This document shows, piece after piece, positions 35,643 to 53,592 of a stretch of 64,000 nt of DNA. Position numbers and translations under genes: made by a program. A model generated the notes under the pieces. That model ran no database searches. It saw nothing but the letters and a program-made list of their open reading frames with translations, and was not told where the DNA came from. The DNA lies in assembly GCA_013289705.1 (NCBI GenBank), contig JABCZM010000005.1, forward strand, positions 1-64,000. Reading direction: 5' to 3'. Numbering within the stretch: position 1 is the first letter of the stretch; each line of letters opens with the position of its first letter. Source of the DNA: Candidatus Saccharimonadota bacterium (GTDB lineage: Bacteria; Patescibacteriota; Saccharimonadia; Saccharimonadales; UBA4665).

Positions 35643-36704
35643 CTATTGCGATACCTCAGAGCTAATAATTTCTATCTTATTAATAAACTCTCGGATATCC
35701 AAAAAGTAGTTTGGGTAGGCTTGTTTTAGGGATTTTAACCTTCCTGCTGATACCAGAACAGGCTCAATCTGCTCACCATTTGCCGCTTTAAGCTCGGCGG
35801 CCTCGTAAGCCTTAGCTGCTGCAGAAAGTCTATTCTTGGGGAAGGAAGAAATATTTACCGTATGTTCCTCAGGATTCAGGATAATAAGGTGATAGTAGCC
35901 GTTCACCTTATTTCCATGAATAGCATCAGCTGCAACCGAAATGCCTGCAAGTTGCTCGAGTAGGTTAAGGCCTTTGGCCATTTTCGAAAGCTTCTTGAAC
36001 ACCTGAACGGCAGTTAATTGAGCATGTTTAGTGACTGGCGGAGACTTTTCAAGATGGGCAAAAGCTGACGAGGCCAGGGTAAAGAACTCCAGCCAATCTT
36101 CGCTACCATTTCCTGATTTAAGAGCCTCTTGCCTAAACACACCCACCGTTTCTACGGCAGTTGCCCAGTTGTGCTGTAACTTAGTACGAAGCTGCAACTC
36201 AATCAGCAAGCCATTATATTCTGACGCAATGCCATTTCGGGCCAATGTATTATTATAGCGAAAGACAAGATGAATCCCTCTATAACCGTCTGGCTTAGGC
36301 TCTAGAATGTAGTCCTTGTGAGACACTAATTCATGGGTAAAACGCCTCGTATCTATGTACTGCTTTTCAAGCTCCCTAACCTCATCAATACTATTTACGA
36401 TTGCTCTGACTCCGCCAATGTCCTGCATTCGAGCTAGTTTCATGGTTGGGTAACGATTGAGCTTATCGATAATTGTTGGTAATCGCTTTAATCTCTGGGC
36501 TACGATTGAATCTTCAAAGTGTTTTGTTTTATCTCTCAAAGTTGAATTGAACGTGTTTATGGGGTAGCCGTGGCTTACTCTCCACGAGTTAAGCATGTCT
36601 ACGGCTTCTAGATATTTAGGACTACCAACCCTCGCTGAAAGCAAAGTTTCGCCAACTTTATTAATTTCTGATCTAGACAGCTTGGGGACTTTTGGAAATG
36701 ACAT
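35643..36704 (-). CDS. RelA/SpoT-domain protein (small alarmone synthetase-like)
   Basis: 353 residues. The synthetase fold is visible: SIVAQRLKRLPTIIDKLNRYPTMKLARMQDIGGVRAIV (R and D of the ATP/Mg site), DYILEPKPDGYRGIHLVFRY (the G-loop Tyr), and LLIELQLRTKLQHNWATAVE (ExQxRT...W motif). No HD hydrolase domain precedes it and no TGS/ACT follows; the C-terminal 120 residues are helical and unassigned. Such stand-alone synthetases on mobile DNA may act as toxins (toxSAS) or anti-phage effectors, or make (p)ppGpp. TATAAT ends 7 nt before the ATG; no ribosome-binding site. Confidence 0.82.
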   Translation of the reverse strand: MSFPKVPKLSRSEINKVGETLLSARVGSPKYLEAVDMLNSWRVSHGYPINTFNSTLRDKTKHFEDSIVAQRLKRLPTIIDKLNRYPTMKLARMQDIGGVRAIVNSIDEVRELEKQYIDTRRFTHELVSHKDYILEPKPDGYRGIHLVFRYNNTLARNGIASEYNGLLIELQLRTKLQHNWATAVETVGVFRQEALKSGNGSEDWLEFFTLASSAFAHLEKSPPVTKHAQLTAVQVFKKLSKMAKGLNLLEQLAGISVAADAIHGNKVNGYYHLIILNPEEHTVNISSFPKNRLSAAAKAYEAAELKAANGEQIEPVLVSAGRLKSLKQAYPNYFLDIREFINKIEIISSEVSQ

Positions 36705-37680: not shown

Positions 37681-37749
37681 GCGGCTGAATTCTATACAAC
37701 CTACCATAAGCATATTGTATAGAATATAATTATGTGTATAATAGTATGT

Positions 37750-38022
37750 ATGGGTTTTGAATGGGATGATAGTAAGAACACGCTTAACATCAACAAGCAT
37801 GGGCTGTCATTTTACGAAGCTCAAGATGCTTTCTTTGACGCGGGCAGGGTTACCTTGGAAGACACCAAGCACTCACCTACGGAGAAAAGATACTTTTGCA
37901 TCGGCAAAACGGCTCGTGGCGGTATTGCCACGGTAAGGTTCACTATAAGGAATGGCAATATTCGCATCATCGGTGCTGGGTATTGGCGGAAAGGAAAGAA
38001 AATATATGAGCAACAACATTAG
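37750..38022 (+). CDS. brnT: BrnT-family toxin
   Basis: 90 residues, RelE/BrnT fold. FEWDDSKNTLNINKHGLSFYEAQDAFFD and the second half (RYFCIGKTARGGIATVRFTIRNGNIRIIGAGYWRKGKKIYEQ) follow the BrnT pattern, including conserved 'W.....N..KHG..F' and the basic 'R.I.A....K.E...Y'-type end. Members are ribonucleases that block translation. ATG 37750 is preferred over 37732: TATAAT lies 7 nt before it with TTGTAT 16 bp further upstream. Confidence 0.87.
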   Translation: MGFEWDDSKNTLNINKHGLSFYEAQDAFFDAGRVTLEDTKHSPTEKRYFCIGKTARGGIATVRFTIRNGNIRIIGAGYWRKGKKIYEQQH

Positions 38023-38263
38023 ATATACTGACGCTCCCACTGACATGGAGCAGTTACTTGATACAGCGGTTATCACTGACGGTTTACTGCCATCTCCATC
38101 CGAGCTTGTCCGCAAGACGGAAAAGGAACGAATTACCATCGCGATTGATAAGCACAGTCTTGAGCTCTTTAGGCAATACGCAAAGAAGCACGATGCTAAA
38201 TATCAGAGTATGATTAACGGTGTTCTAGGATCATACGCTAAAAAGTTCCTAAGTCATAAATAG
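38006..38263 (+). CDS. brnA: BrnA-family antitoxin
   Basis: 85 residues. The C-terminal half (ERITIAIDKHSLELFRQYAKKHDAKYQSMINGVLGSYAKKF) is a ribbon-helix-helix DNA-binding unit, and the N-terminal half would bind the toxin. ATG 38006 follows GGAAAG and lies inside the toxin's 3' end (17-bp overlap), as usual for toxin-first BrnTA operons that the antitoxin represses. Confidence 0.87.
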   Translation: MSNNIRYTDAPTDMEQLLDTAVITDGLLPSPSELVRKTEKERITIAIDKHSLELFRQYAKKHDAKYQSMINGVLGSYAKKFLSHK

Positions 38264-39058: not shown

Positions 39059-39202
39059 ATGCTTTGGCTGGGGCGTGAGTTCCTTAAGATAACCCTTGCC
39101 GATCTAGATAATAGTGCCGAGATTGACGTTCAGGAGATCCGACAACTTATAGATGATGAGTCAGATAGTTCTGCATCGGCTCCAGAAAAGAGTATGGCGT
39201 AA
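39059..39202 (+). CDS. small acidic protein, 47 aa, starting on a tRNA-end-like core (copy G)
   Basis: Codons 2-5 (TTTGGCTGGGG, 39063-39073) match the tRNA-Gln 3'-end core in the same frame as the recombinase-linked ORF. The protein continues REFLKITLADLDNSAEIDVQEI and ends Ser/Ala-rich. TATAAA ends 6 nt before the ATG. Its TAA overlaps the ATG of the Mrr-like gene (TAATG), so the two are coupled. Possibly a partner or immunity factor of the nuclease, or simply a junction product. Confidence 0.5.
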   Translation: MLWLGREFLKITLADLDNSAEIDVQEIRQLIDDESDSSASAPEKSMA

Positions 39203-39768
39203 TGGCTCGGTTGTATTGCAGACGCTCTGATGATCACGTTGGATTCATCATAGTTATTCTAGCCGCAGGAACAGTCTGGGCGCACAGAGTAGTGTTTACC
39301 AGGATCGAGCACCTCTTGCCCGTTATATGGATTACTGCGTTGATAATAGTAGGTTTAGTAATCCTTACTAGACTTGGTATGAGAATCAATAAGAATCGGC
39401 GTCTATATCGGGCTGATGCGATAGATATAGACACTATGACTGGGCTAGAGTTTGAAAGATACGTAGCCAAACTCTTAAAGACCCGGGACTACAGCCGTAT
39501 CCGACTAACTGAATATTACGATCTAGGAGTAGACATCATTGCCGAAAAAGACGGTATCAGATGGGGTATTCAGGTAAAGCGCTACTCCGGCTTAGTGAAA
39601 GCTAATGCCATAAGAGAAGCAGTGACCGCGCTGAGGTACTATGAATGTGATAGAGCTATGGTTATATCAAACAGCACCTATAGTCATACAGCTATGGAAT
39701 TAGCTTGGAGTAATGATTGTATCCTCATAGATAGGAATAGATTGGTGTCATGGGTTTTGTTGGGCTAA
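39202..39768 (+). CDS. membrane-anchored Mrr-like restriction endonuclease
   Basis: 188 residues. Two membrane helices (about 12-30 and 38-58) precede a PD-(D/E)xK domain: GLEFERYVAKLLKTRDYSRIRLTEYYDLGVDIIAEKDGIRWGIQVKRYSG shows the catalytic D (LGVDII) and the QxK motif (IQVKRY), followed by EAVTALRYYECDRAMVISNSTYSHTAMELAWSNDCILIDR, the Mrr_cat helical end. Mrr proteins cut modified or foreign DNA. Membrane tethering suggests action on incoming DNA; that is inference. Confidence 0.85.
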   Translation: MARLYCRRSDDHVGFIIVILAAGTVWAHRVVFTRIEHLLPVIWITALIIVGLVILTRLGMRINKNRRLYRADAIDIDTMTGLEFERYVAKLLKTRDYSRIRLTEYYDLGVDIIAEKDGIRWGIQVKRYSGLVKANAIREAVTALRYYECDRAMVISNSTYSHTAMELAWSNDCILIDRNRLVSWVLLG

Positions 39769-40985: not shown

Positions 40986-43715
40986 ATGCATCACCTCCTA
41001 AACGAAATTCTCAATGGGCCAGCTCGCTACTCCGTTCGGCACCACTTTAGCCCACTTTGGACGTTAGTCTTTGTGCTTGGTATTTTGCTGGCTGAATTTA
41101 TCGCGGTATATCTTATTGGCTATCTTATAGTAAAGGCTATACAAAGCACTCGCCCATTCGTAGGTTGGATACTTCGGCGCTGTGGAGTCGGTAAGATCAA
41201 CAACCCCCAAACCTTCCTGGAATTGACTATCCCCGTAGATACCACCAAGTCAGCTTTTGCCACTGAGCAACTCCATATATTGCTACGCAGCTTAGTAACC
41301 TATAACAAAACCTGGGAACGGCTAGCCGCTTATAAGAAGCCTTATTCTCTCGAGCTATACGGAACCCATGATGACGGTATCCGCTTTATCCTTATGATTC
41401 CGACCTTTGCTGAAGATATTGTCCGCCGTAATCTCCTGTCCTTTCTACCCGGACTGAAGATTAAGCCAGTCGACGACTACCTGAGAGCCATTAAAAACGT
41501 TTCAGTTGGTGTTATTGAGCTACGGCTCGGCTCAGACTTTGTGCTGCCTCTGCAAGATCATAAGGCTTTAGCTGAACATGATCCGATGGCCTACCTCACT
41601 GGGCATATGACGAAATTGTTGCCAAAAGAATTAGTAGCTTCCCAACTCGTAGTTACACCACTCTTCAGCACGACTCATCACCAAGTTTTACGCCATATAC
41701 GTGGTATACAAGGCCGGATAGCTCTCAACAAAGAGCTGTCTTCTAAGCTGGTTAAACAACGCACGCCGCAAGGGTATATCTGGTTACTGGTGTGGTATCC
41801 ACCGGTCTGGTTCCTCGGGGCTATGTTCAAAGTTGTCACAGGATTAGCTGAGATATTAGGCTCGGCTTTCTCCAGAGATCACGATCTACCTGAATTCATG
41901 AAGAGTGACCGTGGCCAGGGCAAATCGAGTAATCCTTATGAGCTAGAGCTCGGCAAGCTGATAAAGTCTAAACTCGACCAGCAACTGTTTGAAGTAACGA
42001 TGCGGATTTTGGTAGCCTCTCCCGATCCTACGACTATTACGAATCGGCTGGATGCTATAGCTGAGTCATTTAAGCCTTTTACGAGTACCTACCAATCGAT
42101 CAGGGTTCGGAGTGATATGCCGTTTACCACGACTGGTACTCAGTATTTCACGAAGTTCAAAGCCCGAATCTTATCCGTGCATCATCTGAGCCAACCAACC
42201 ATACTGTCTAGTTCTGAACTATCCGATCTCTACCATTTCCCAAATACCGATCTGACTAAGACTGAAGGGTTAGTAAAAAGCCGGAGCCGAGAACTGCCTA
42301 CGCCGTTATCTATAAGCCGGAGCGATACGCAGCTAGACGTTATCGTCGGTGTTAACGAGCATGGTGGTGAGCAGCAACCTATTGGCTTAACGCTAGAGCA
42401 ACGCCGGATGCATACCTACGTCATTGGTAAGACTGGCACTGGTAAAACTACTTTGCTAACCAGCTCTATCTATCAGGATATGATTAGTGGTAAAGGCCTG
42501 GCCGTGCTTGATCCTCATGGTGATATGTTCCAAGAACTACTGAGCATTGTTCCAGAGCATAGACGTAAGGATGTAGTCGTGTTTGATCCCTCTGACCGTG
42601 ACTTCCCAATTGGTCTTAATATTTTAGATCCAGATTTGGAGTTTGCTGACGATGAAGATAAAGAGCAGTGGATTACCGGCAATGTCCTATCTGTCTTTGC
42701 CAAGCTTGCTGACGAAAAGCTGTGGGGACCTCGTATGGAACATGTGCTGCGGAGTACGACTCTAACGGCGCTACAGACATCCAACCCCAGTTTATATACC
42801 ATTCAGCGGCTTCTGACGGACAGACCGTACCAGAAGGCGGTGGCCAAGACATTAAAGGATCCAGTGCTGAAGCAGTTCTGGCAAAAAGAGTTTGCTCTCA
42901 TGGGCGGTATGCAGATGGCGAATGTCACCCAGCCTTTAACAAACCGTTTAGGGCACTTTATTACCACGAAGATGTCGCGGCATATCCTCATGCAGGGAAA
43001 AAGTACGCTCCGTATCGCTGATATCATGAATGAAGGTAAGATCTTACTGGTTAACCTATCTAAGGGTGATATTGGTGAAGACCAAAGTACATTCTTTGGT
43101 ACGATTCTGACTTCGTTCATCTGGATGGCCGCCTACCAGCGAACTAAGATCCCAGAAAAACAAAGGCGAGACTTCTTTCTTTATGTTGATGAGTTTCAGA
43201 ACTTCGCAACGCCACGGTTTGCAGAGATAACCAGTGAAGGTAGAAAGTTTCGGGTTTCGCTCATCGTCTCACATCAGAACATTGCCCAGATAGAAGACAA
43301 GAATATTTTAAAAGTTATGGCAGGTAACGCGCACGCTATCATCGCCCTGAAGAGCAGCCCTGATGATGAAGCCTTTATGTTGCCGTTTATGAAGCCGGTG
43401 GTTGAGCGTGGTGACATCGTGAATCTGGCGCCGTATCATTTCTATATGAAGACCACAGCAGACGAGAGCGAGGATGCTTTTTCTGGGGTAACGGTACCAT
43501 TGGAGGTAGAAGTCTCGGATGACGTACGCCAGCAAGTTATTGCCTACAGTCAGAAACAGTATGGGACGCCGAAGAAAACCGTTGAGGCTTATATGGAGAA
43601 GTTGTTTGGGATGGAGCAGCAGACCAGGATATCTAATGTGACTACGAAGAAAGTTGCTAAAAGACCTAAGAGCAACCCAAAGAGTAAAAATGTAAAGAAG
43701 CAATACGGAACCTAG
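40986..43715 (+). CDS. type IV secretion/conjugation coupling ATPase (VirD4/TraG/TraD-HerA type)
   Basis: 909 residues. N-terminal membrane helix (LWTLVFVLGILLAEFIAVYLIGYLI). A long region (60-430) precedes the motor domain: Walker A YVIGKTGTGKTTLL (about 480), LAVLDPHGDMFQELL (Walker B of the HerA-like start), later FFLYVDEFQNFATPRFAEITSEGRKFRVSLIVSHQNIAQI (second acidic box and sensor), and KSSPDDEAFMLPFM. Pumps DNA through a membrane channel during conjugation. No other secretion subunits are seen in the window, so it may use machinery encoded elsewhere. C-terminal tail Lys-rich. Confidence 0.88.
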   Translation: MHHLLNEILNGPARYSVRHHFSPLWTLVFVLGILLAEFIAVYLIGYLIVKAIQSTRPFVGWILRRCGVGKINNPQTFLELTIPVDTTKSAFATEQLHILLRSLVTYNKTWERLAAYKKPYSLELYGTHDDGIRFILMIPTFAEDIVRRNLLSFLPGLKIKPVDDYLRAIKNVSVGVIELRLGSDFVLPLQDHKALAEHDPMAYLTGHMTKLLPKELVASQLVVTPLFSTTHHQVLRHIRGIQGRIALNKELSSKLVKQRTPQGYIWLLVWYPPVWFLGAMFKVVTGLAEILGSAFSRDHDLPEFMKSDRGQGKSSNPYELELGKLIKSKLDQQLFEVTMRILVASPDPTTITNRLDAIAESFKPFTSTYQSIRVRSDMPFTTTGTQYFTKFKARILSVHHLSQPTILSSSELSDLYHFPNTDLTKTEGLVKSRSRELPTPLSISRSDTQLDVIVGVNEHGGEQQPIGLTLEQRRMHTYVIGKTGTGKTTLLTSSIYQDMISGKGLAVLDPHGDMFQELLSIVPEHRRKDVVVFDPSDRDFPIGLNILDPDLEFADDEDKEQWITGNVLSVFAKLADEKLWGPRMEHVLRSTTLTALQTSNPSLYTIQRLLTDRPYQKAVAKTLKDPVLKQFWQKEFALMGGMQMANVTQPLTNRLGHFITTKMSRHILMQGKSTLRIADIMNEGKILLVNLSKGDIGEDQSTFFGTILTSFIWMAAYQRTKIPEKQRRDFFLYVDEFQNFATPRFAEITSEGRKFRVSLIVSHQNIAQIEDKNILKVMAGNAHAIIALKSSPDDEAFMLPFMKPVVERGDIVNLAPYHFYMKTTADESEDAFSGVTVPLEVEVSDDVRQQVIAYSQKQYGTPKKTVEAYMEKLFGMEQQTRISNVTTKKVAKRPKSNPKSKNVKKQYGT

Positions 43716-43732
43716 GCTTTAATATATGACCA

Positions 43733-44803
43733 CTACCAGCGTTCTTTACTGGTAAAAGTCTTGTAGTGAGTCATTTCCTCTTCGTTAACGGAAGGCGTAG
43801 TCTTGACTATTGAGTCTTCTAGCATACTTTGGTCGATAACGTCCTTATCCCGCATAACTGCCATGCGAGCAGCTTCGTTAACAACCAGCTCGATGTCGGC
43901 GCTAACATAGTTCGCTGCTAATCCTGCTAATTTGTCGTAGTCTATTTTACCCACTGGGCGATCAGATAGAAAAAGCTTAAATAAGTCATGTCTAGCCTGG
44001 TCATCTGGTGGAGGTACAAATATACGTTTATCCATTCTTCCGGCTCTTAAGATTGCAGTATCTATCAACTGAGGGCGATTCGTTGCCGCAACAACAAGAA
44101 TATTATTCTTGCCCGCATCGTTCAACTGCATCAGGAATTCGTTTACTTCTTCCTGCTTGTACTGCATCTCGGCACCAAGACCCTCTCTTTTGGGTATTAA
44201 GCCTTCGATCTCGTCTATAAAGACGAGTGAGGGGGCTTTTAACTTTGCCATATCAAATAACTTACCGACCTTGCCTACGGTGCCATGAATATAAGAAGAT
44301 GATATATCTGAGTGTTTAACTTCAAGAAAGTTATATCCAAGCTCTTCGGCTAGTTTACGAACAATGAAGGTTTTCCCGCAACCTGGAGGGCCAAACAATA
44401 GTATGCCGTTTGGAACAGTTATCTTAAACTTCTCGTACTTTTCTGGGTTTTGTAATGGTTTGATGACATCTTCTAAAAGTAGACCCTTTAACGCTACCAT
44501 GCCCGCAACCGCCTCGAACCCTTTAATCTGAGTTAGGCTCTCCAGAATTGCCGTTACATGTTCAATAGAGTGTGAAGCCGTAACAATCCCTAAATATTCA
44601 GTTCCATTTACTGTTATCTTAATCAATTCGGTTTTCTTGCTCTTAATTTCTGATGGCTTAAGATTTGTAAAAAGATACATATACTTACCGTCCGTGAGCT
44701 TATATATCTCAGTGAAGAAGACTTTATCAACTCTACTCTTAACTTCCTGCCCAGAAGGTAATTTATATCCGTTATATAGAATAGGCTTAGATACTTCTGT
44801 CAT
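43733..44803 (-). CDS. AAA+ ATPase of the Hsp70-linked operon
   Basis: 356 residues: an N-terminal beta-type domain (1-110), then a classical AAA module: Walker A GILLFGPPGCGKTFIVRKLAEELG, pore-loop region SSSYIHGTVGKVGKLFDMA, Walker B PSLVFIDEIEGL, sensor 1 NNILVVAATNRPQLID, Arg fingers RAGRMDKRIFVPPPD, and a C-terminal helical lid. Similar to the proteasomal/FtsH/Vps4 clade without a protease domain, so it is likely an unfoldase or disassembly motor. Begins 4 bp after the stop of the J-like gene and closes a four-gene operon that starts at 49694. Confidence 0.88.
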   Translation of the reverse strand: MTEVSKPILYNGYKLPSGQEVKSRVDKVFFTEIYKLTDGKYMYLFTNLKPSEIKSKKTELIKITVNGTEYLGIVTASHSIEHVTAILESLTQIKGFEAVAGMVALKGLLLEDVIKPLQNPEKYEKFKITVPNGILLFGPPGCGKTFIVRKLAEELGYNFLEVKHSDISSSYIHGTVGKVGKLFDMAKLKAPSLVFIDEIEGLIPKREGLGAEMQYKQEEVNEFLMQLNDAGKNNILVVAATNRPQLIDTAILRAGRMDKRIFVPPPDDQARHDLFKLFLSDRPVGKIDYDKLAGLAANYVSADIELVVNEAARMAVMRDKDVIDQSMLEDSIVKTTPSVNEEEMTHYKTFTSKERW

Positions 44804-44807
44804 TGTC

Positions 44808-46679
44808 TTATCTTAAACCATTACATTCAGTTGCTTTATCGTTAACCTGTTGAACCAAACTGTTCTGCTGGGGTATCAGATTATTATAATCAGTTGTATC
44901 GCCGCTTGATTGGTATGAAGTCTCCTGAGCATTAACCGAGTCTAGCTGACTTTTTAAACTATTGTACTGAGTAACGCAATCGTTGTAAGCTTGTGAACTA
45001 TTTCCACTCGATGAGCCTGAAGAACTTGCACCAGTACTGCCCGAGCCACCTGAACCTGAGTTTGAAGAATTGCTACTGTGACTACTAGCTACTCCAATAA
45101 TAATAAAAATACCAATTGTAATTGCCCAGCCAATTAAACTTTTTACATGTTTTTGTCTCTGAAGTTGTGGTATTTTTGCTGCTAAATTACCCGTTATAAC
45201 AGAATCTATAAGTATGATTAATATACTGCTTTCGAATTGGTCTTTAAAATGTTTCTCTGCCTGCTCTACTACACTACTTCTTAGACTATCAACGGCCTGA
45301 CCACTTCTCTGGTCTTTTCCTAACAGTTCAGTAAGCCTGTTGATCTCGGCTATCATATCATCAACGTATTCTTTACTGATATTTGTATCTTCTAGGTAAC
45401 TATAGATAAATTCTACATTTGAAGTAAGTAGATTGACGGCCTCAGAGTAGTCTTTATCATCGTATAGCTTTTTACCTTCATTGAATTGTTTTATTGCCAG
45501 TTCTGTTAAGCACCACTTTAACCTTTGTGCCAAAAATTCTTGAAGCTCTTTATCCTTAGGGTATTTTGATTGAGTATCCACGATTAAATCTAAAGCTTCA
45601 GCATACTTACCCGCTTCTTGCAGGTCAGTGATAGGCTTCATTATCTTATCCCTACCTACTAATCTCCTTAAGTCACTTAAGTCATCTTCGAGCCTAGCCT
45701 TTAGGGTGGGTGTTCCACATATTTCGAGTGCAATTTTTAGAATACTGCCCGACTTAGCAGCATCATTAAGATTATTATAAAGATTAAGGCCGACACTCCT
45801 CATTGATTCTGCCGCCTTATCTCTCATAGCTTTTGACTGGCTATCATTATAAAGACCGATATCTTTTAACTTATTGAAACTGTTCCTTAGAATGATTACT
45901 AAACTTTTAAGCTCATCCAGTTTTTCTTTTGAAATGAGTTTTTCATCGGTGATCTTTATATTTTTTAGTTTCATCGATGCATTGTTAATTGTTTCGTATA
46001 TAGGAGCAAGCAAGTCTTTCTCAACTTTAGCGCCTTTAACTTTGAAGGCTCTCTGAAATTCTGCAACAAAGTTGTTATCACCAAGCTCCTTGCTAACATC
46101 GGTGTAATAGTCTGACAAAGTATTTACTACACCCGACTTGAAGCTACTCACTGCCTCAACACTAGTACCTAGCTCATCATTAAGCTGATAAATCTTAGTA
46201 AATGATGACCAAAACTTTTCTGACTCAACGATTTCCTGCCATGTTCGTATAGATCGATTTAAATACTGCTTAGTTCCAGTACTTGCTAGTATTGTTAAGA
46301 GAACCGCTAAATTACGTTTAGCTATAAAGCCTTTTGCGGTTTCTTGTTCAGCCGATTTGTGCCAATCAGTAACAACTTCTGCTGTACGGTTATTTTGTAG
46401 TTTCTTAAAATCATCATCTATATCAGTATTTGCTGAGTCAAACCAGTAGAAATATTCAGAGATACGCTTAGTCGGAGAAGTTAAGTTCTGTAGTGCAAGT
46501 TTTACGCTATTATCTGTTCTTACTGGTTTAAGTATTTTTAGGTCTTGGTCATATTCAGGAACTTCATCTATCTTTAGTAAGTTCGATAACTCCTTAGCTC
46601 GATGATTAATTTCTTTCTGTGTGGAGCTTATATCTAGCCCCAAAACATTAAAACCATTTTTGCTAAAGAGATCTGCCAT
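44808..46679 (-). CDS. membrane protein with J-domain-like N-terminus and helical repeats
   Basis: 623 residues. Residues 8-80 (GFNVLGLDISSTQKEINHRAKELSNLL..., ALQNLTSPTKRISEYFYWF) have the helix pattern of a J domain ('F.vLGl....s..eI..ra..l...L... al..L..p.kRi..e.fWf') but lack the HPD tripeptide. Residues 85-480 are helical with TPR-like pieces (AGKYAEALDLIVDTQSKYPKDKELQEFLAQRL; FNEGKKLYDDKDYSEAVNLL). A membrane helix (LIGWAITIGIFIIIGVASS, about 515-535), a Ser/Gly linker and a small Cys-bearing extracytoplasmic coil end the protein. Start overlaps the Hsp70 stop by one base (TAATG). Confidence 0.75.
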   Translation of the reverse strand: MADLFSKNGFNVLGLDISSTQKEINHRAKELSNLLKIDEVPEYDQDLKILKPVRTDNSVKLALQNLTSPTKRISEYFYWFDSANTDIDDDFKKLQNNRTAEVVTDWHKSAEQETAKGFIAKRNLAVLLTILASTGTKQYLNRSIRTWQEIVESEKFWSSFTKIYQLNDELGTSVEAVSSFKSGVVNTLSDYYTDVSKELGDNNFVAEFQRAFKVKGAKVEKDLLAPIYETINNASMKLKNIKITDEKLISKEKLDELKSLVIILRNSFNKLKDIGLYNDSQSKAMRDKAAESMRSVGLNLYNNLNDAAKSGSILKIALEICGTPTLKARLEDDLSDLRRLVGRDKIMKPITDLQEAGKYAEALDLIVDTQSKYPKDKELQEFLAQRLKWCLTELAIKQFNEGKKLYDDKDYSEAVNLLTSNVEFIYSYLEDTNISKEYVDDMIAEINRLTELLGKDQRSGQAVDSLRSSVVEQAEKHFKDQFESSILIILIDSVITGNLAAKIPQLQRQKHVKSLIGWAITIGIFIIIGVASSHSSNSSNSGSGGSGSTGASSSGSSSGNSSQAYNDCVTQYNSLKSQLDSVNAQETSYQSSGDTTDYNNLIPQQNSLVQQVNDKATECNGLR

Positions 46680-49219
46680 TACTTAGTAATTCCTGCCGTA
46701 TTGCTTGTTATCTCTTCCTGCTCTTCAGTAGGCAACATATCAAGCAGATTACGAACGCACCGTTTTAGCTCTTCGAAATCATTCTGCTCGATTGCAGTAT
46801 CTGCTTTTTTAATGAAGTACTCACCATCTGTTTGATTTTCTAGCTTAGATTTCTTACTTTTAATTTCATTTAATTGCCAAACCCAGAAAGATGGATCTTG
46901 GACTAGAGCACGATATGTCACATCACGTACTTGTTGAATCACACGGTTTAGCATATCTTTATCTTCATTCTTTACGGCCTGATTACCCTCGCTTCGCAAC
47001 ACTTTTAGCTGTTCAACTATGCGGTCTTTCTCTTTATCTTCATTTAGGTTATTTAGTAATTCTTGTGCGTTATTAAATACTTCCTCAAACTCACTTTTGA
47101 GTTGCGGTAATTCTTTGGAGTGTTCAAGTTTATCAAGTTTCGTCTCTAATTCACGTAGGTCACGTTCTGCCTTATTCTTGTCGTCAACATCTGTACCGGC
47201 ATTTTTTATATTGCCTGAGAGCGTATCAATGCTGTTTTCAAGTTGGTTAAATTGATCTTCGGGTATATTGCTCTTGATTTTGCTTAGTCTTACTTTCTGA
47301 GCGGTTAAATTCGCCTCAAGATCAACAATATCCACTGCTTGGGCATATTTATCTACTCTAGTATTTATGGCGAGCTCTATACTGGGTAAATATGCCTCAA
47401 TCGTAACTGTCCTAGAGTCATCAATTTTAATCGTAAGGTCTACTTCAGTATCTGCTGGTAGGTCATAAGGTAGTTGCTTGCCATCAATCTTAAGCGTAGT
47501 AATAACTTGATTGCCTCTAGGTACGTCTGCCTCACCTTCATAGACTTTTATTGGTAACTGGTTATCTTTGCCTTTTTCAAGTTTCTTAAGTGTGCGGTAA
47601 GTACGAGTTTCACTTAAAGGAGGTATGCTGTTCTTTTCAAAGTATGGGTCACACACTTCTTTATATTGGAAGTCACTGTTAATACCTTTTTCTGCATATA
47701 TCACACCTATGGTATGCGGTATTGGAGAACCAGATACTGTTAGGCCATGAGTTATACTAAACGATTCTGGATAGACGGGTAGCGAGTTCCCATTATCGTC
47801 AAACAGATACAGCCAGTAAACATTTTGAACACTCTTTTGGACAGTGATTGTGTCAAAAAAGTTTCCAGATTTTAGCTTGATCTTCGAACTGGTATAAGAA
47901 CCATCGTCAGATTGAATTTGGAGATAATAGTCCTGGTCGTTATTTTTTAATTCCTCTGCAGTTCCTGTGACTGTTTGTTCCTCTTCTGATGTCATAGCAT
48001 CATAATGTAATGTGAGATGAATTTCTCCACTAATCTTAGTGTGTGTTTCCGAAAGAATATCTTGTGGCACTCTCTGACTTAGACCGAATAAACATGCCCC
48101 TCTGGCAACTATAGTAAGTGGATCAACGGAGTTATCAATGGTAAGCTTAAAAACCGTCTCTAGTGTTTTCTTTATGTATGGGATTTGAGTAGGGCCACCG
48201 ACAAGAACAATTCTATTAATAGCCGACGCTTGTATACCAGAATCCTTAATTGTTGCGCTAGTTAACTCTATTGTTTCATCAACTTTTGACTTTATGAGTT
48301 TTTCAAATTCTTCACGGGTCAAATCAACAGATACATAAATGTCTTCTCCACCAGAAATACCTTTCGCAATATCTTCAATTTCAATAGTCGTTTTATCAAA
48401 CTGGCTTAGCTCAACTTTTGCTGTCTCGGCTAATGCTTTTAATCGAGCAAATGCGCTCTTTACTCTCAGGTCTTCATTACTTCTACTAAAATCTTTCAAC
48501 TTATATTTATCTAAAATAGCAGGTCTTAATACCTCATCCACTATTAGCCAGTCAAAGTCTTTACCACCTAGAAAATTATTGCCGCTGTGTGCAAGCACAG
48601 TTAAAACACCGTCTTTAGAAGATATCAAAGCTACGTCAAAAGTCCCACCGCCCAAGTCATAAACTAGCCAGTTCTGATTATTAGTATTATCAAATCCATA
48701 GGCGATTGCAGCAGCTATGGGTTCTTGGAGTAGAACTACATATTTAAATCCTGCTAACGACCCTGCACGCTTAGTTGCTTCAGCTTGTAGTGATGAGAAG
48801 TAGGCAGGCACAGTTATTACCGCATATTCAGTTTCGGCTTCAGGATATCTTCTATTAACGTCTTCTTTAAGACTTATCAGTATCTCGGCTGAAATTTCTT
48901 CAGGGGACATGTCAGTGTTATTTCTCTCAAAGTGAACTTTTTCTGAAGTCCCCATAAGTCGCTTAACTTCGGCCTTATTATTGTTGAATTCGTCTTCAGA
49001 TGAACTCTTAAATAGCTTGTCATATGATTTACGGCCTACGACTTTATTTTTGGCTTTATCTATACCAAATACCGACGGTGTATAGTCGTCTTGCATGGAG
49101 TTTTTTACAATTTCTGGCTTGCCATCAATATTTATTGCAACTTCAGAATTAGTAGTACCTAGGTCAATACCTAGCTTTATGGTGCCGTCCTGTTTAGTTC
49201 TATCTTTTTTAGGGTTCAA
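46679..49219 (-). CDS. unusual Hsp70 (DnaK-like) chaperone with inserted beta domain
   Basis: 846 residues; TTG start at 49219 because no other start precedes LGIDLGTTNSEVAI. The nucleotide-binding domain is complete: GIDLGTTNS (phosphate 1), YAVITVPAYFSSLQAEATKRAGSLAGF, LVYDLGGGTFDVALIS (phosphate 2), IVLVGGPTQIPYIKKTL (adenosine). After it (about 390-500) an extra beta-rich domain (IHLTLHYDAMTSEEEQ... NVYWLYLFDDNGNSLPVYP) precedes a substrate-binding-like sheet (QLPIKVYEGEADVPRGNQ... VDLTIKIDDSRTVTIEAYLP). A long charged coiled coil (620-840) replaces the usual lid. It overlaps the upstream GrpE-like gene by 11 bp. Distinct from housekeeping DnaK (about 610-640 residues). Confidence 0.9.
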   Translation of the reverse strand: MNPKKDRTKQDGTIKLGIDLGTTNSEVAINIDGKPEIVKNSMQDDYTPSVFGIDKAKNKVVGRKSYDKLFKSSSEDEFNNNKAEVKRLMGTSEKVHFERNNTDMSPEEISAEILISLKEDVNRRYPEAETEYAVITVPAYFSSLQAEATKRAGSLAGFKYVVLLQEPIAAAIAYGFDNTNNQNWLVYDLGGGTFDVALISSKDGVLTVLAHSGNNFLGGKDFDWLIVDEVLRPAILDKYKLKDFSRSNEDLRVKSAFARLKALAETAKVELSQFDKTTIEIEDIAKGISGGEDIYVSVDLTREEFEKLIKSKVDETIELTSATIKDSGIQASAINRIVLVGGPTQIPYIKKTLETVFKLTIDNSVDPLTIVARGACLFGLSQRVPQDILSETHTKISGEIHLTLHYDAMTSEEEQTVTGTAEELKNNDQDYYLQIQSDDGSYTSSKIKLKSGNFFDTITVQKSVQNVYWLYLFDDNGNSLPVYPESFSITHGLTVSGSPIPHTIGVIYAEKGINSDFQYKEVCDPYFEKNSIPPLSETRTYRTLKKLEKGKDNQLPIKVYEGEADVPRGNQVITTLKIDGKQLPYDLPADTEVDLTIKIDDSRTVTIEAYLPSIELAINTRVDKYAQAVDIVDLEANLTAQKVRLSKIKSNIPEDQFNQLENSIDTLSGNIKNAGTDVDDKNKAERDLRELETKLDKLEHSKELPQLKSEFEEVFNNAQELLNNLNEDKEKDRIVEQLKVLRSEGNQAVKNEDKDMLNRVIQQVRDVTYRALVQDPSFWVWQLNEIKSKKSKLENQTDGEYFIKKADTAIEQNDFEELKRCVRNLLDMLPTEEQEEITSNTAGITK

Positions 49220-49694
49220 GGAGGACGACCTTTGCCTTTCTAATTAACTGACCCTTATGAGTGATTGCAGGTTCGTGTGTCTCTTTAATCATGCTCTGCC
49301 TAATCTTAGGGTCTTTCTCCACTGCAAGAACATCGAGGTTCATACCTTCATTATATTTTTGATCAGCGTATTCAGTAACCCCAATGTCATTACGGTCTAA
49401 GTATCTGGATAATTTAGAGTAGGAGTTTTGGAGTGCCTTAACTTGATCTGGGCTAACTGATGACTCAATCTTTTCCAAACGCTTCTTCAAACGCCAAACC
49501 TCTATGCCTAGTTCAACGAGGCTATTAGTTTCTGGCGAGATTTGAATAAATTTGGGAACTACTGACTGGACAATTTGCAGCCTTACGCTCTGTAAAGCTA
49601 AGACGATACGCTGTAAAGCTAGATACAAGACCAAGGAGACCATTATTATAAGGGTGGCTATGGTAATTACAGTAATCGTCTGTTCTTGGTTCAT
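49209..49694 (-). CDS. membrane-anchored GrpE-like protein, 161 aa
   Basis: One membrane helix (ITVITIATLIIMVSLVLYLAL), a coiled coil (IEVWRLKKRLEKIESSVSPDQVKALQNSYSKL) and a small C-terminal beta domain (YADQKYNEGMNLDVLAVEKDP... ITHKGQLIRKAKVVLLEP). The ending 'kG.liR.A.V.v' and the coil-plus-beta-domain order resemble GrpE, the DnaK nucleotide exchange factor, but similarity is low. First gene of the operon, directly followed by Hsp70, which supports the reading. Confidence 0.6.
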   Translation of the reverse strand: MNQEQTITVITIATLIIMVSLVLYLALQRIVLALQSVRLQIVQSVVPKFIQISPETNSLVELGIEVWRLKKRLEKIESSVSPDQVKALQNSYSKLSRYLDRNDIGVTEYADQKYNEGMNLDVLAVEKDPKIRQSMIKETHEPAITHKGQLIRKAKVVLLEP

Positions 49695-50206: not shown

Positions 50207-51004
50207 TTAAACCTCTTCCCAGATAATCCCCGTAACACCCTCTGACCTTACGCTTGCGACCGTTGCAAAACGCAGAATAACGTCTTCTGGGATATCATCG
50301 TCCCAGATATCGGCTAGAAGCTTGCGTGTCCGTCGTTTGGCGTAAGCAAGCTCAGCTATTGTTGGACAGGCGATTAGGATAATTGGTGGCTTGTCGTCAC
50401 CGGTTCTATTCTCCCATTCGCCATCTTCTAGGTATGCTATGTAATCATTGAGGCGTTTCTTAACCATGTAACGGGGAGTTGTCGGGTCAAAGACCTCTAA
50501 TAAGTAAGTCTTCTTGTTTCTAGACGTTTTCTTTATAAAACAGAGCTGCGGATGTGGCTCTGTTAGAAATGCATAATCACTGTCAGGGTCGGCATAATCT
50601 GAAGCCGTTACGAATGCGTAGTGTGTACTGCTGGTTGTTTTGGATTTTAGCGTAAGGCAACAATCAGCGATCAGCAGGCAGCGAGCTATAAAGTCTGGTT
50701 TACGTGCTGGTTCTCGGTAGCGTTTGCGCAGCTCTTCTGCTGGATACTCGTCAGTTGTTCGTAGGTATCGTATGCCATTAAGCCCAAGGTAGTAGATAGC
50801 GGGCTTGGTTTTTTCTACAAAGTTATCACCATCGTAGATCCATTCGATGTACTGTTTATCCCTGAGATCTTTAAGCCACTCAGCAATACGCCGGTTATTC
50901 TTGTGTCCCATGAGTGCTTGTATCTGTATGCGATTTAGGAATCGGTATTTGTATAGTAGCTTGAGTATGTCTTGTTGTTTGGTGGTTATCGGGGATAGTT
51001 TCAT
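50207..51004 (-). CDS. replication-relaxation family protein
   Basis: 265 residues. N-terminal winged HTH (TTKQQDILKLLYKYRFLNRIQIQALMGHKNNRRIAEWLKDLRDKQYIEWIY) with the YYLGLNGIRYLR wing, then a nuclease-like alpha/beta domain (HYAFVTASDYADPDSDYAFLTEPHPQLCFI, TYLLEVFDPTTPRYMVKKRLNDYIAYLEDGEW, PIILIACPTIAELAYAKRRT), which fits the Replic_Relax family of plasmids and integrative elements. Probably acts on the element's own DNA at replication or transfer. TTACAT-16-TATAAA ends 5 nt before the ATG; no ribosome-binding site. Confidence 0.75.
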   Translation of the reverse strand: MKLSPITTKQQDILKLLYKYRFLNRIQIQALMGHKNNRRIAEWLKDLRDKQYIEWIYDGDNFVEKTKPAIYYLGLNGIRYLRTTDEYPAEELRKRYREPARKPDFIARCLLIADCCLTLKSKTTSSTHYAFVTASDYADPDSDYAFLTEPHPQLCFIKKTSRNKKTYLLEVFDPTTPRYMVKKRLNDYIAYLEDGEWENRTGDDKPPIILIACPTIAELAYAKRRTRKLLADIWDDDIPEDVILRFATVASVRSEGVTGIIWEEV

Positions 51005-51773: not shown

Positions 51774-51947
51774 ATGTTGTACGAGGGTAGCAACCAGACT
51801 CAGGAAAAGGACAAAGTAGAAGTTCTACGACTTATTCTGGAACGCGAGCAGGGGCGGCCAGTCGCGTACGATGAGGCGCTGGAAGTAGCCGAGTCACTGA
51901 TCAGTTTCTTTGAGGTATTGATACAGAAAGAGGAGCGAGTGTTGTGA
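51774..51947 (+). CDS. small protein coupled to the serine recombinase, 57 aa
   Basis: KDKVEVLRLILEREQGRPVAYDEALEVAESLISFFEVLIQKEE: two helices with the 'LRxIL..EqGRpv.yeEA.Eva..Li.fyevL' pattern common to tiny ORFs ahead of large serine recombinases in CPR and Firmicutes elements. The stop overlaps the recombinase GTG (GTGA, 4-bp overlap). Possibly a recombination directionality or accessory factor; that is inference. Confidence 0.65.
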   Translation: MLYEGSNQTQEKDKVEVLRLILEREQGRPVAYDEALEVAESLISFFEVLIQKEERVL

Positions 51948-53434
51948 GCCAAGACACGAACGCCGTTATTATCGCCCGCGTCTCAAGCAAGCGACAAGAA
52001 GACGAGGGCTACTCGTTACCGGCTCAGAAAAAACTCCTGAATCGTTACGCCCTCGATAAAGGCTTAAATCCCATAAAGACCTTTGAGATAACCGAGTCAG
52101 CCTCTAAGGCCATCCAACGACGTATCTTCAAAGAGGCCATGAAGTTCATTGAAGACAACAAGGTTAAACACCTCATTGTTGAGAAGGTAGATCGACATGT
52201 CCGAAATCTCCACGATGCTGTCGAGACGAACGACTGGTTAATGGCTGATGAGGCCAAACGAGTCCACTTTGTAAAAGACTCGCTGATCATGCATAAAAAC
52301 TCTCGGTCTCAAGAGTGGCTCAACTGGGGCATACGAGTTGTTATGGCCAAGAACTACATCGACAACTTGCGCGAGGAGGCTATGAAGGGCTGGGCGGAGA
52401 AACTAGCCCAGGGCTGGCTACCAGGTGTCCCGCCTCCAGGTTATATGACGGTTACGCAAAATGGTAAGCGTATCCATGTACCAAACTCTGCGACCATGCC
52501 ATTAATGAAGAAGGTCTTTGAGGCGTACCTAGAACCAAGTCAGTCTATCGCCTCAACTGCCGATACCATGAAGCATATGGGCATAACCACCCGCAAGGGG
52601 CGGCCGTATTATAAGAGTCAGGTACAACGAATCCTAACCAACCCCTTCTATATAGGTATTAACCGTTGGAACGGCAAAGACTACCCTGGTGCTCAGGAAA
52701 CGTTCATTAGTAAGGAGCTGTTCGATAAAGTACAAAATAAGATGCGTCGCAAGTTACCGACGCGCTATCGCCAACATAACCCCGTACTTAAGAACCTCAT
52801 TCACTGCAAGAGTTGTGGCGGTATCGTGACGTGGCAACTTCAAAAAGGGCACTACTATGGAACCTGTCAGCGTGCCAGTGAAGCCTGTAAGGGACGCAAG
52901 TTGTTGCGGGAGGATAAGATTGAAGCTGAGATAATGACCATGCTTAAACAGCTTGTCAGTCCGTCAGAAGAAGTCATCGCCTGGGTGGCGACAGCCATGC
53001 AGGAGCGTCATCAGGACTCAATCGAGACTAACGATCAGCTAACGTCCTCTATCCAGGCTCAGGTTGCTCGTCTTACGCGCATGGATACTAATCTATACGA
53101 CGATAAACTAGCTGGTGAAATACCGGCTGAGCGATATGAGCAAAAACACGCTGAGCTGATGGCTGAGAAAGCCCAACTGGAAGAGCGTCTAAGCAAGATT
53201 GATCAATCACTCGGCATTCTCCTTGAGAAGAAGCTTGTCTTGCTAGAACTATCCCAGAAAGCTTCTGAGCTATACCCCAATAAGACACCGGAACAGAAAC
53301 GCACCATAATAACCAAACTATTCCAGAAACTAACCTATGACAACGGTGTCGTATCTGTTAACTATACGAATTTTACCCGGGCAATCGCCCAGAATGTGTT
53401 CAAAACTAATAATTTGCTAGGAGGCAAGATATGA
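51944..53434 (+). CDS. large serine recombinase (integrase)
   Basis: 496 residues. Resolvase domain with the nucleophile in IIARVSSKRQEDEGYSLPAQ (Ser near residue 14), VEKVDRHVRN (conserved Arg), then the recombinase domain (GYMTVTQNGKRIHV..., TTRKGRPYYKSQVQRILTNPFYIGINRWNG), a zinc ribbon (HCKSCGG... GTCQRASEACKG) and a long coiled coil (about 370-440). Such enzymes integrate and excise mobile DNA at short att sites without host factors. It sits 80 bp from the 3' end of tRNA-Gln, the likely target. GTG start within the previous gene's stop. Confidence 0.92.
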   Translation: MSQDTNAVIIARVSSKRQEDEGYSLPAQKKLLNRYALDKGLNPIKTFEITESASKAIQRRIFKEAMKFIEDNKVKHLIVEKVDRHVRNLHDAVETNDWLMADEAKRVHFVKDSLIMHKNSRSQEWLNWGIRVVMAKNYIDNLREEAMKGWAEKLAQGWLPGVPPPGYMTVTQNGKRIHVPNSATMPLMKKVFEAYLEPSQSIASTADTMKHMGITTRKGRPYYKSQVQRILTNPFYIGINRWNGKDYPGAQETFISKELFDKVQNKMRRKLPTRYRQHNPVLKNLIHCKSCGGIVTWQLQKGHYYGTCQRASEACKGRKLLREDKIEAEIMTMLKQLVSPSEEVIAWVATAMQERHQDSIETNDQLTSSIQAQVARLTRMDTNLYDDKLAGEIPAERYEQKHAELMAEKAQLEERLSKIDQSLGILLEKKLVLLELSQKASELYPNKTPEQKRTIITKLFQKLTYDNGVVSVNYTNFTRAIAQNVFKTNNLLGGKI

Positions 53435-53592
53435 GTAACCAAACTTTACCAAATGACCAGAACGACAGATATAAAAAGGCTATAAAAGCTCACGAGAATG
53501 CTCTACGTACTATTTGGCTGGGGATGAGGGATTCGAACCCCCGATCGTGGAACCAGAATCCACTGCCTTACCACTTGGCCAATCCCCATTAA
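53431..53592 (+). CDS. small ORF coupled to the recombinase and running into the tRNA; att-spanning gene candidate
   Basis: ATG overlaps the recombinase stop (ATGA) behind AGGAGG. The first 28 codons (NQTLPNDQNDRYKKAIKAH...) are element-specific; from the Trp codon at 53515 onward the frame reads through TGG-CTG-GGG, i.e. antisense to tRNA-Gln, and stops past it. The C-terminal half is therefore not a natural protein sequence. In the excised circle the same reading frame would join whatever follows the core at the element's left end; copies A-C supply such a tail (GNQTFEDELDFD) in the right frame. Confidence 0.5.
   Translation: MSNQTLPNDQNDRYKKAIKAHENALRTIWLGMRDSNPRSWNQNPLPYHLANPH
53515..53588 (-). 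tRNA. tRNA-Gln (anticodon CUG), CCA encoded
   Basis: Acceptor stem TGGGGAT/ATCCCCA, D arm GCC/GGC, anticodon stem GTGGA/TCCAC with loop TTCTGGT (CTG at positions 34-36, reading CAG), T arm GGGGG-TTCGAAT-CCCTC, discriminator G and encoded CCA. The 3' end faces the recombinase. Its 3' end (TGGCTGGGGAT on the plus strand) is the sequence repeated across 25-39 kb. Confidence 0.95.

Follow-up and report, generated by a model that had tools for sequence, protein, structure and literature searches.

We identified an operon in the genome of a Candidatus Saccharimonadota bacterium that encodes a GrpE-like protein, an Hsp70, a J-like/TPR membrane protein and an AAA ATPase, and in which both sides of the canonical J-Hsp70 switch are, by residue comparison, lost together while the ATPase residues are kept. 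Profile searches and predicted structures establish the identities of the parts, their intact ATP sites and the loss of the HPD-R167 contact from both partners, and comparisons among genomes establish that the set spreads horizontally and is exchangeable within its host element. From its genomic context, we infer a role in conflicts between the host or its element and phages or other mobile DNA. On balance, we consider it probable that this is a mobile cargo module for such conflicts, most likely directed at phages, that would remodel proteins at the membrane through an HPD-independent Hsp70 cycle.

Within the whole 64-kb stretch of DNA analysed (hereafter, the window), ORF calling recovered the four overlapping or abutting genes of the preliminary description, together with their 11-bp overlap, 1-bp overlap and 4-bp gap (Table 1). 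The start codon of the Hsp70 gene is TTG, as it is in the Hsp70 gene of a second genome, G002. The same four genes occur in the same order in G002 and in a third genome, G272, whose J-like proteins are 65% and 40% identical to that of the window, respectively; the operon is therefore not a chance reading. With a GC content of 0.38, compared with 0.45-0.51 in the flanks, it is richer in A+T than any other part of the window. The housekeeping dnaK, grpE and hrcA genes of the same genome (assembly of 1.24 Mb, 97% complete) are located elsewhere, on contig C4.

Table 1. Genes and other features in and around the operon (positions in the window)
Feature	Position	Strand	Description
RelA/SpoT-like protein	35643-36704	minus	assigned by eye; PADLOC candidate PDC-S33 match 3e-121; same A+T-rich region
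BrnT/BrnA-like toxin-antitoxin pair	37732-38263	plus	assigned by eye; overlapping small ORFs
Mrr-type nuclease domain	39202-39768	plus	Pfam Mrr_cat 6e-24; behind apparent membrane helices (by eye)
TraG/TrwB-like ATPase	40986-43715	plus	Pfam TrwB_AAD_bind 7e-6; backbone, left edge of cargo slot
AAA ATPase	43733-44803	minus	356 aa; Pfam AAA; fold of ~93-aa N-terminal domain not assigned
J-like/TPR membrane protein	44808-46679	minus	623 aa; HPD-less J domain 46658-46449; helical solenoid; TM 45137-45081; two-Cys helical-hairpin ectodomain 44999-44814
Hsp70	46679-49219	minus	846 aa; NBD 49174-48086; insert ~48058-47735; SBD-beta ~47719-47369; charged helical tail ~47332-46682
GrpE-like protein	49209-49694	minus	161 aa; N-terminal TM ~49670-49614; GrpE domain ~49523-49212
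Replication-relaxation protein	50207-51004	minus	Pfam Replic_Relax 1.2e-9; backbone, right edge of cargo slot
Large serine recombinase	51944-53434	plus	Pfam Resolvase + Recombinase; end ~80 bp from tRNA-Gln
tRNA-Gln(CTG)	53515-53588	minus	ARAGORN; probable integration site

The nucleotide-binding domain (NBD) of the Hsp70 is normal (residues 16-378; Pfam HSP70, 4.2e-81), and the inserted domain reported before was likewise recovered. It replaces the linker, comprises ~110 residues (~388-498) without any match to DnaK or its SBD, and is followed by a genuine SBD-beta (profile match to the DnaK SBD at residues 501-617, P 2.3e-10). The C-terminal tail had been described as a charged coiled coil in place of the usual lid; ~220 charged helical residues do replace the lid, while the coiled coil is a by-eye reading from composition. 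Residues D8, T11, K70, E171, D194 and T199 are kept in 14/14 family members.

R167 is the residue acted on by the HPD aspartate, with D393 and D481 as its intramolecular partners, and the HPD-R167 contact is treated as the universal switch of Hsp70 machines (PMC7289447). In all 14 family Hsp70s, R167 is replaced by V, A, S or E and N170 by Q, versus R and N, respectively, in 43/43 housekeeping DnaK proteins. The family carries the signature KRxMGT in place of KRxIGR, and Asp occupies the D393 linker column in 1/14 members, in an alignment that is uncertain at the insert. On the J-like side, the absence of HPD noted earlier holds for every J-like protein compared (HPD in 0/12, the window protein plus 11 homologues). 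With HPD lost in the one partner and R167/N170 in the other, both sides of the switch are gone together, and these residue patterns suggest a chaperone machine that is probably active but triggered differently.

For the J-like and GrpE-like proteins, single-sequence profile tests are too weak, and the figures given here come from family profiles; the AlphaFold2 models of both are single chains, with alignment rows from Patescibacteria only. The N-terminal ~70 residues of the J-like protein match DnaJ J-domains (Prob 91, P 1e-6, score 37.7, compared with at most 14.9 among 60 shuffles). A profile built from Patescibacteria only also matches (Prob 93), one built from plasmid proteins only is weak (Prob 11.5), and the two groups match one another (Prob 93). 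By profile, then, the J-like protein is a true relative of J domains that lacks HPD. Its model (pLDDT 83) contains a helical solenoid as well as a helical hairpin predicted with good confidence (residues 561-622); the solenoid gave weak TPR matches, none of the PDB folds matched it below E 0.001, and a sequence search of the PDB with the J-like protein returned no match.

The GrpE-like family profile matched housekeeping GrpE (Prob 95, P 2.4e-8) with a score of 56.6, whereas 40 column shuffles scored 13.0 at most. The Pfam GrpE model is sub-threshold for the window protein (E 0.0076) and matches 5/11 homologues (best 3.6e-6), and the best 12 PDB folds for its AlphaFold2 model (pLDDT 84) are all GrpE or GrpEL1. 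The protein is thus, by predicted fold and profile, a real GrpE relative, and the GrpE-type exchange factor that is a feature of the canonical DnaK system is present here. Profile searches had been proposed in the preliminary description as a check of the subunits, and they place both putative co-chaperones among true GrpE and J-domain relatives. The single membrane helix read in each of them was also found by hydropathy, at residues 9-27 of the GrpE-like protein (hydropathy 2.72) and 515-533 of the J-like protein; none is predicted in the Hsp70 or the AAA protein.

Beyond its membrane helix, the J-like protein ends in a two-Cys ectodomain whose arrangement varies within the family. In G506, the TM helix and two-Cys ectodomain form a separate gene between those for the J-like and AAA proteins (L113:3971-4453). 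Two HPD-containing J proteins of related genomes have TM helices and the same two-Cys ectodomain (L010:8792-9742 and L013:1462-2403), and ORFs of 330-380 aa in several further genomes of the order gave weak matches to it; these weak matches suggest a chromosomal Saccharibacteria gene. In Aminobacter and Sinorhizobium, the J/TPR protein has a two-Cys outer domain fused to it; in other Proteobacteria this domain is separate, and in Vibrio and Shewanella it is joined to a peptidoglycan-binding domain. A profile test found no homology between the Patescibacteria and Proteobacteria types, which are analogous.

The fourth gene had been assigned to the AAA unfoldase clade, an assignment borne out by its Pfam matches (AAA, 2e-34, and AAA_lid_3) and by its nearest curated families, PAN, FtsH and Cdc48. 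It is a classical AAA protein with Walker A and B motifs, sensor 1 and an Arg finger, motifs that were checked in 10 homologues. Its best PADLOC match is IetA (2.5e-36), although PAN/FtsH/Cdc48 models score higher. A separate observation is that the family AAA of Haliscomenobacter is fused to an N-terminal protein kinase (L021:11356-13167). The N-terminal domain of the window protein was considered as a kinase-lobe remnant and the profile test was negative (Prob <1).

The operon was initially placed inside an element with a conjugation ATPase and several conflict genes, and a TraG/TrwB-like ATPase, an Mrr-type nuclease and the PADLOC candidate PDC-S33 are indeed found near it. No second att copy of at least 13 bases for the tRNA-Gln site was found within the window. 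A sister element occurs in the closed genome G005 in the same tRNA-Gln/metK neighbourhood, with a recombinase 64%, a TraG ~63-64% and a Replic_Relax protein 48% identical to those of the window; ~1.9 kb of other genes lie between its recombinase and the tRNA, and its exact att site may differ from that of the window. Between TraG and Replic_Relax, the G005 slot holds a NUDIX gene, a trypsin-like protease and unassigned genes, and no chaperone operon. As this sister element carries other cargo in the same slot, the operon is, on comparative grounds, exchangeable cargo and not transfer machinery. Assembly of the transfer apparatus, one of the jobs suggested for the operon at the outset, is accordingly disfavoured, G005 having TraG, Replic_Relax and the recombinase without it. 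The element of a further genome, G003, has a TraG ~64% identical and no chaperone operon, with a KAP NTPase related to PifA/QatA adjoining TraG, and in G015 the tRNA-Gln is present without an element. The protease of the G005 cargo and its 377-aa partner (L134:17351-19405) are possibly another conflict pair.

The set is sporadic, occurring in ~1% of sampled Patescibacteria, and its J-Hsp70 interface is non-canonical; it is neither a conserved part of core genomes nor ordinary housekeeping DnaK/GrpE/DnaJ. Full-length or near-full-length J-like proteins are present in 4 of ~400 genomes of the order, including the query genome, and an SBD-CT profile run over 380 genomes of the phylum scored strongly in the query genome, G440 and G506, with one weak match besides. 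One copy, on a 6.9-kb contig of G351, adjoins ftsA, with no mobile gene visible on that short contig. Eighty genome-contig loci retrieved with peptide patterns were rejected: the patterns also fit housekeeping DnaK, and no locus was a family member by motif, length or strong SBD-profile score. These loci served as the DnaK, DnaJ and GrpE controls.

The GrpE-like, Hsp70, J-like and usually AAA genes recur together across phyla. Plasmid copies were found in Pseudomonas, Vibrio, Haliscomenobacter, Polaromonas, Shewanella, Aeromonas, Aminobacter and Sinorhizobium (Pseudomonadota and Bacteroidota), with the AAA gene absent from the alphaproteobacterial sets and the Pseudomonas set. In Shewanella and Aeromonas, the operon lies directly downstream of tnsABCDE as Tn7-like cargo; in these elements, six further genes for secreted, RDD and membrane proteins follow it (L023:19342-23149 and L024:19468-23275). 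Among 5,426 complete E. coli genomes, one, HeN100, has the set, and its proteins, which were absent from the profiles that scored them, matched the family at 3.5e-39 (GrpE-like), 4e-17 (J-like) and 7e-123 (Hsp70). The searches made of phage records found no family member, and tblastn of plasmid and phage collections with the J-like protein gave no match.

Defence genes are frequent neighbours of these copies. In E. coli HeN100, the complete set, a five-gene operon (NZ_CP044443.1, ~4115537-4122320), is located in a tRNA-Phe island, with cadC on its other side and with rdrB of RADAR and a remnant of dptF next to it, and the G440 copy is adjoined by a Type III R-M system and AbiU. Gabija stands beside the copies on the Polaromonas and Sinorhizobium plasmids, and the Aminobacter copy has a weaker Gabija-like pair next to it; Zorya adjoins the family operon on the Polaromonas plasmid, and further plasmid neighbours include BREX, a Type IIG enzyme, and DndC- and DrmC-like genes. 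Taking the eight plasmids together (n = 8), defence genes were found near the operon in 7/8 plasmid windows, versus 3/8 (clear scores) to 5/8 (liberal scores) of control windows placed half a plasmid away on the same plasmids; the scan of the controls drew on annotation and a selection of proteins. The difference is suggestive but falls short of significance. The Hsp70, J-like and GrpE-like proteins are not represented among the PADLOC 2.0 models, and Hsp70 goes unmentioned in the main text of DefensePredictor and of a Tn7 cargo survey.

Of the jobs proposed in the preliminary description (transfer-apparatus assembly, stress control after transfer or an NTP-driven defence system), an NTP-driven conflict or defence role appears to fit these contexts best. 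Nothing found speaks for stress control after transfer: no CIRCE element was detected in the window, and the operon has neither a small Hsp nor a protease. In a conflict or defence role, the J-like/TPR protein would hold the Hsp70/AAA machine at the membrane, and its ectodomain, in some relatives accompanied by a peptidoglycan-binding domain, would dock to or sense the envelope. Once infection or DNA entry begins, both motors, Hsp70 and AAA, would engage and remodel a protein complex that is either incoming or associated with the envelope, with a client or TPR contact, not HPD, as the Hsp70 trigger and the GrpE-like factor resetting the Hsp70. The operon encodes no effector enzyme, which counts against the conflict reading. 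Because it contains no nuclease or toxin gene, the machine would be likelier to remodel its target directly, or to gate an effector encoded elsewhere, than to cut nucleic acids. A bolder version, which we offer tentatively as a serious possibility, is that the family is an undescribed phylum-crossing defence system, a membrane-tethered, HPD-independent Hsp70/GrpE/J-like/AAA machine that recognises and dismantles invader protein complexes at the envelope and is carried from host to host by integrative elements, Tn7-like transposons and plasmids.

Chaperones also invite a reading as protein-quality-control cargo for stress tolerance, in which an extra membrane Hsp70/AAA set refolds or extracts damaged membrane proteins, in the manner of transmissible stress-tolerance islands. 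Every part of the operon is a chaperone or unfoldase relative with intact ATP sites, the GrpE-like and J-like proteins are membrane-anchored, and the plasmids with the Tn7-like copies also bear metal-resistance genes. We nevertheless consider this unlikely: no CIRCE heat-shock element was found within the window, a small Hsp, ClpB and a protease are all absent from the operon, canonical J coupling is lost, and the sister cargo is a trypsin-like protease or adjoins a KAP NTPase, none of them stress genes. An entry- or surface-exclusion factor that guards its element at the envelope against phages or related elements, as opposed to general defence, would account for the membrane and outer domains, for the link between the two-Cys outer domain and a peptidoglycan-binding domain in some relatives, and for the location on mobile elements; ATP-driven Hsp70 and AAA motors are, however, unlike known exclusion proteins, and we regard this explanation as improbable. 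More doubtful still is a part in the transfer or maintenance apparatus, where the machine would assemble or energise a TraG-linked conjugation complex. The operon directly adjoins the TraG-like ATPase in the window and has two membrane-anchored subunits, yet TraG is kept without it in the G005 and G003 elements, and no TraG neighbour is present in the stretches examined of the G272, G506, Tn7-like and E. coli copies.

If the favoured role is indeed defence, the module adds Hsp70 remodelling to the means by which bacteria stop invaders. A widespread family in which ATPase, J fold and exchange factor persist while both sides of the HPD-R167 contact are lost is a natural test of the purpose of the switch and of its possible substitutes, and the E. 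coli HeN100 copy opens both questions, switch and defence, to testing in a laboratory strain.

Several known systems resemble the operon in part. With housekeeping DnaK-DnaJ-GrpE it shares the NBD, SBD-beta, J-domain and GrpE folds and the ATP residues, but it is without HPD and the R167/N170 contact, and it has a linker insert, a helical tail for the lid, membrane anchors and an AAA partner. Zorya has an envelope-anchored, peptidoglycan-linked membrane part with cytoplasmic ATPases; the operon would be similar in joining an envelope- or peptidoglycan-linked membrane part to cytoplasmic ATPases, but has no ZorA/ZorB motor. IetAS (the IetA AAA protein plus a subtilisin) is akin to it through IetA, the best PADLOC match of its AAA protein, and a Pfam scan found no subtilisin-like IetS in the operon or its nearest neighbours.

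Within the open-licence PMC literature, the systems that come closest are GAP1-N2 systems, with their Hsp70/GrpE/J theme, and CoCoNuT CnuD, neither of which is this set. The GTPase-centred GAP1-N2 conflict systems have an Hsp70/GrpE/DnaJ-TPR theme (Kaur et al., 2020, eLife, PMC7159879) and resemble the operon in that an Hsp70 and a GrpE are encoded together with a J or TPR protein in operons predicted to serve conflict. For the window copy, a Pfam scan that took in the operon and the ten surrounding proteins found neither a GAP1-N2 GTPase nor an FNIII protein; the operon differs, moreover, in adding an AAA ATPase, in being without HPD, and in spreading on integrative, Tn7-like and plasmid elements. 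CnuD of type III CoCoNuTs, an Hsp70-like protein linked to McrB/McrC and HEPN, is reported to have degenerate Walker A-like motifs (PMC11090510). Pfam and PADLOC found no McrB/McrC homologues in the operon or its nearest neighbours; close to the Haliscomenobacter copy, annotation gives an McrC-like gene inside the BREX cluster. CnuD and the operon are alike in an Hsp70-like NBD/SBD with coiled coils in defence loci, both coiled coil and defence locus being putative for the operon, but the family Hsp70, without McrBC, has intact ATP residues and GrpE and J partners of its own.
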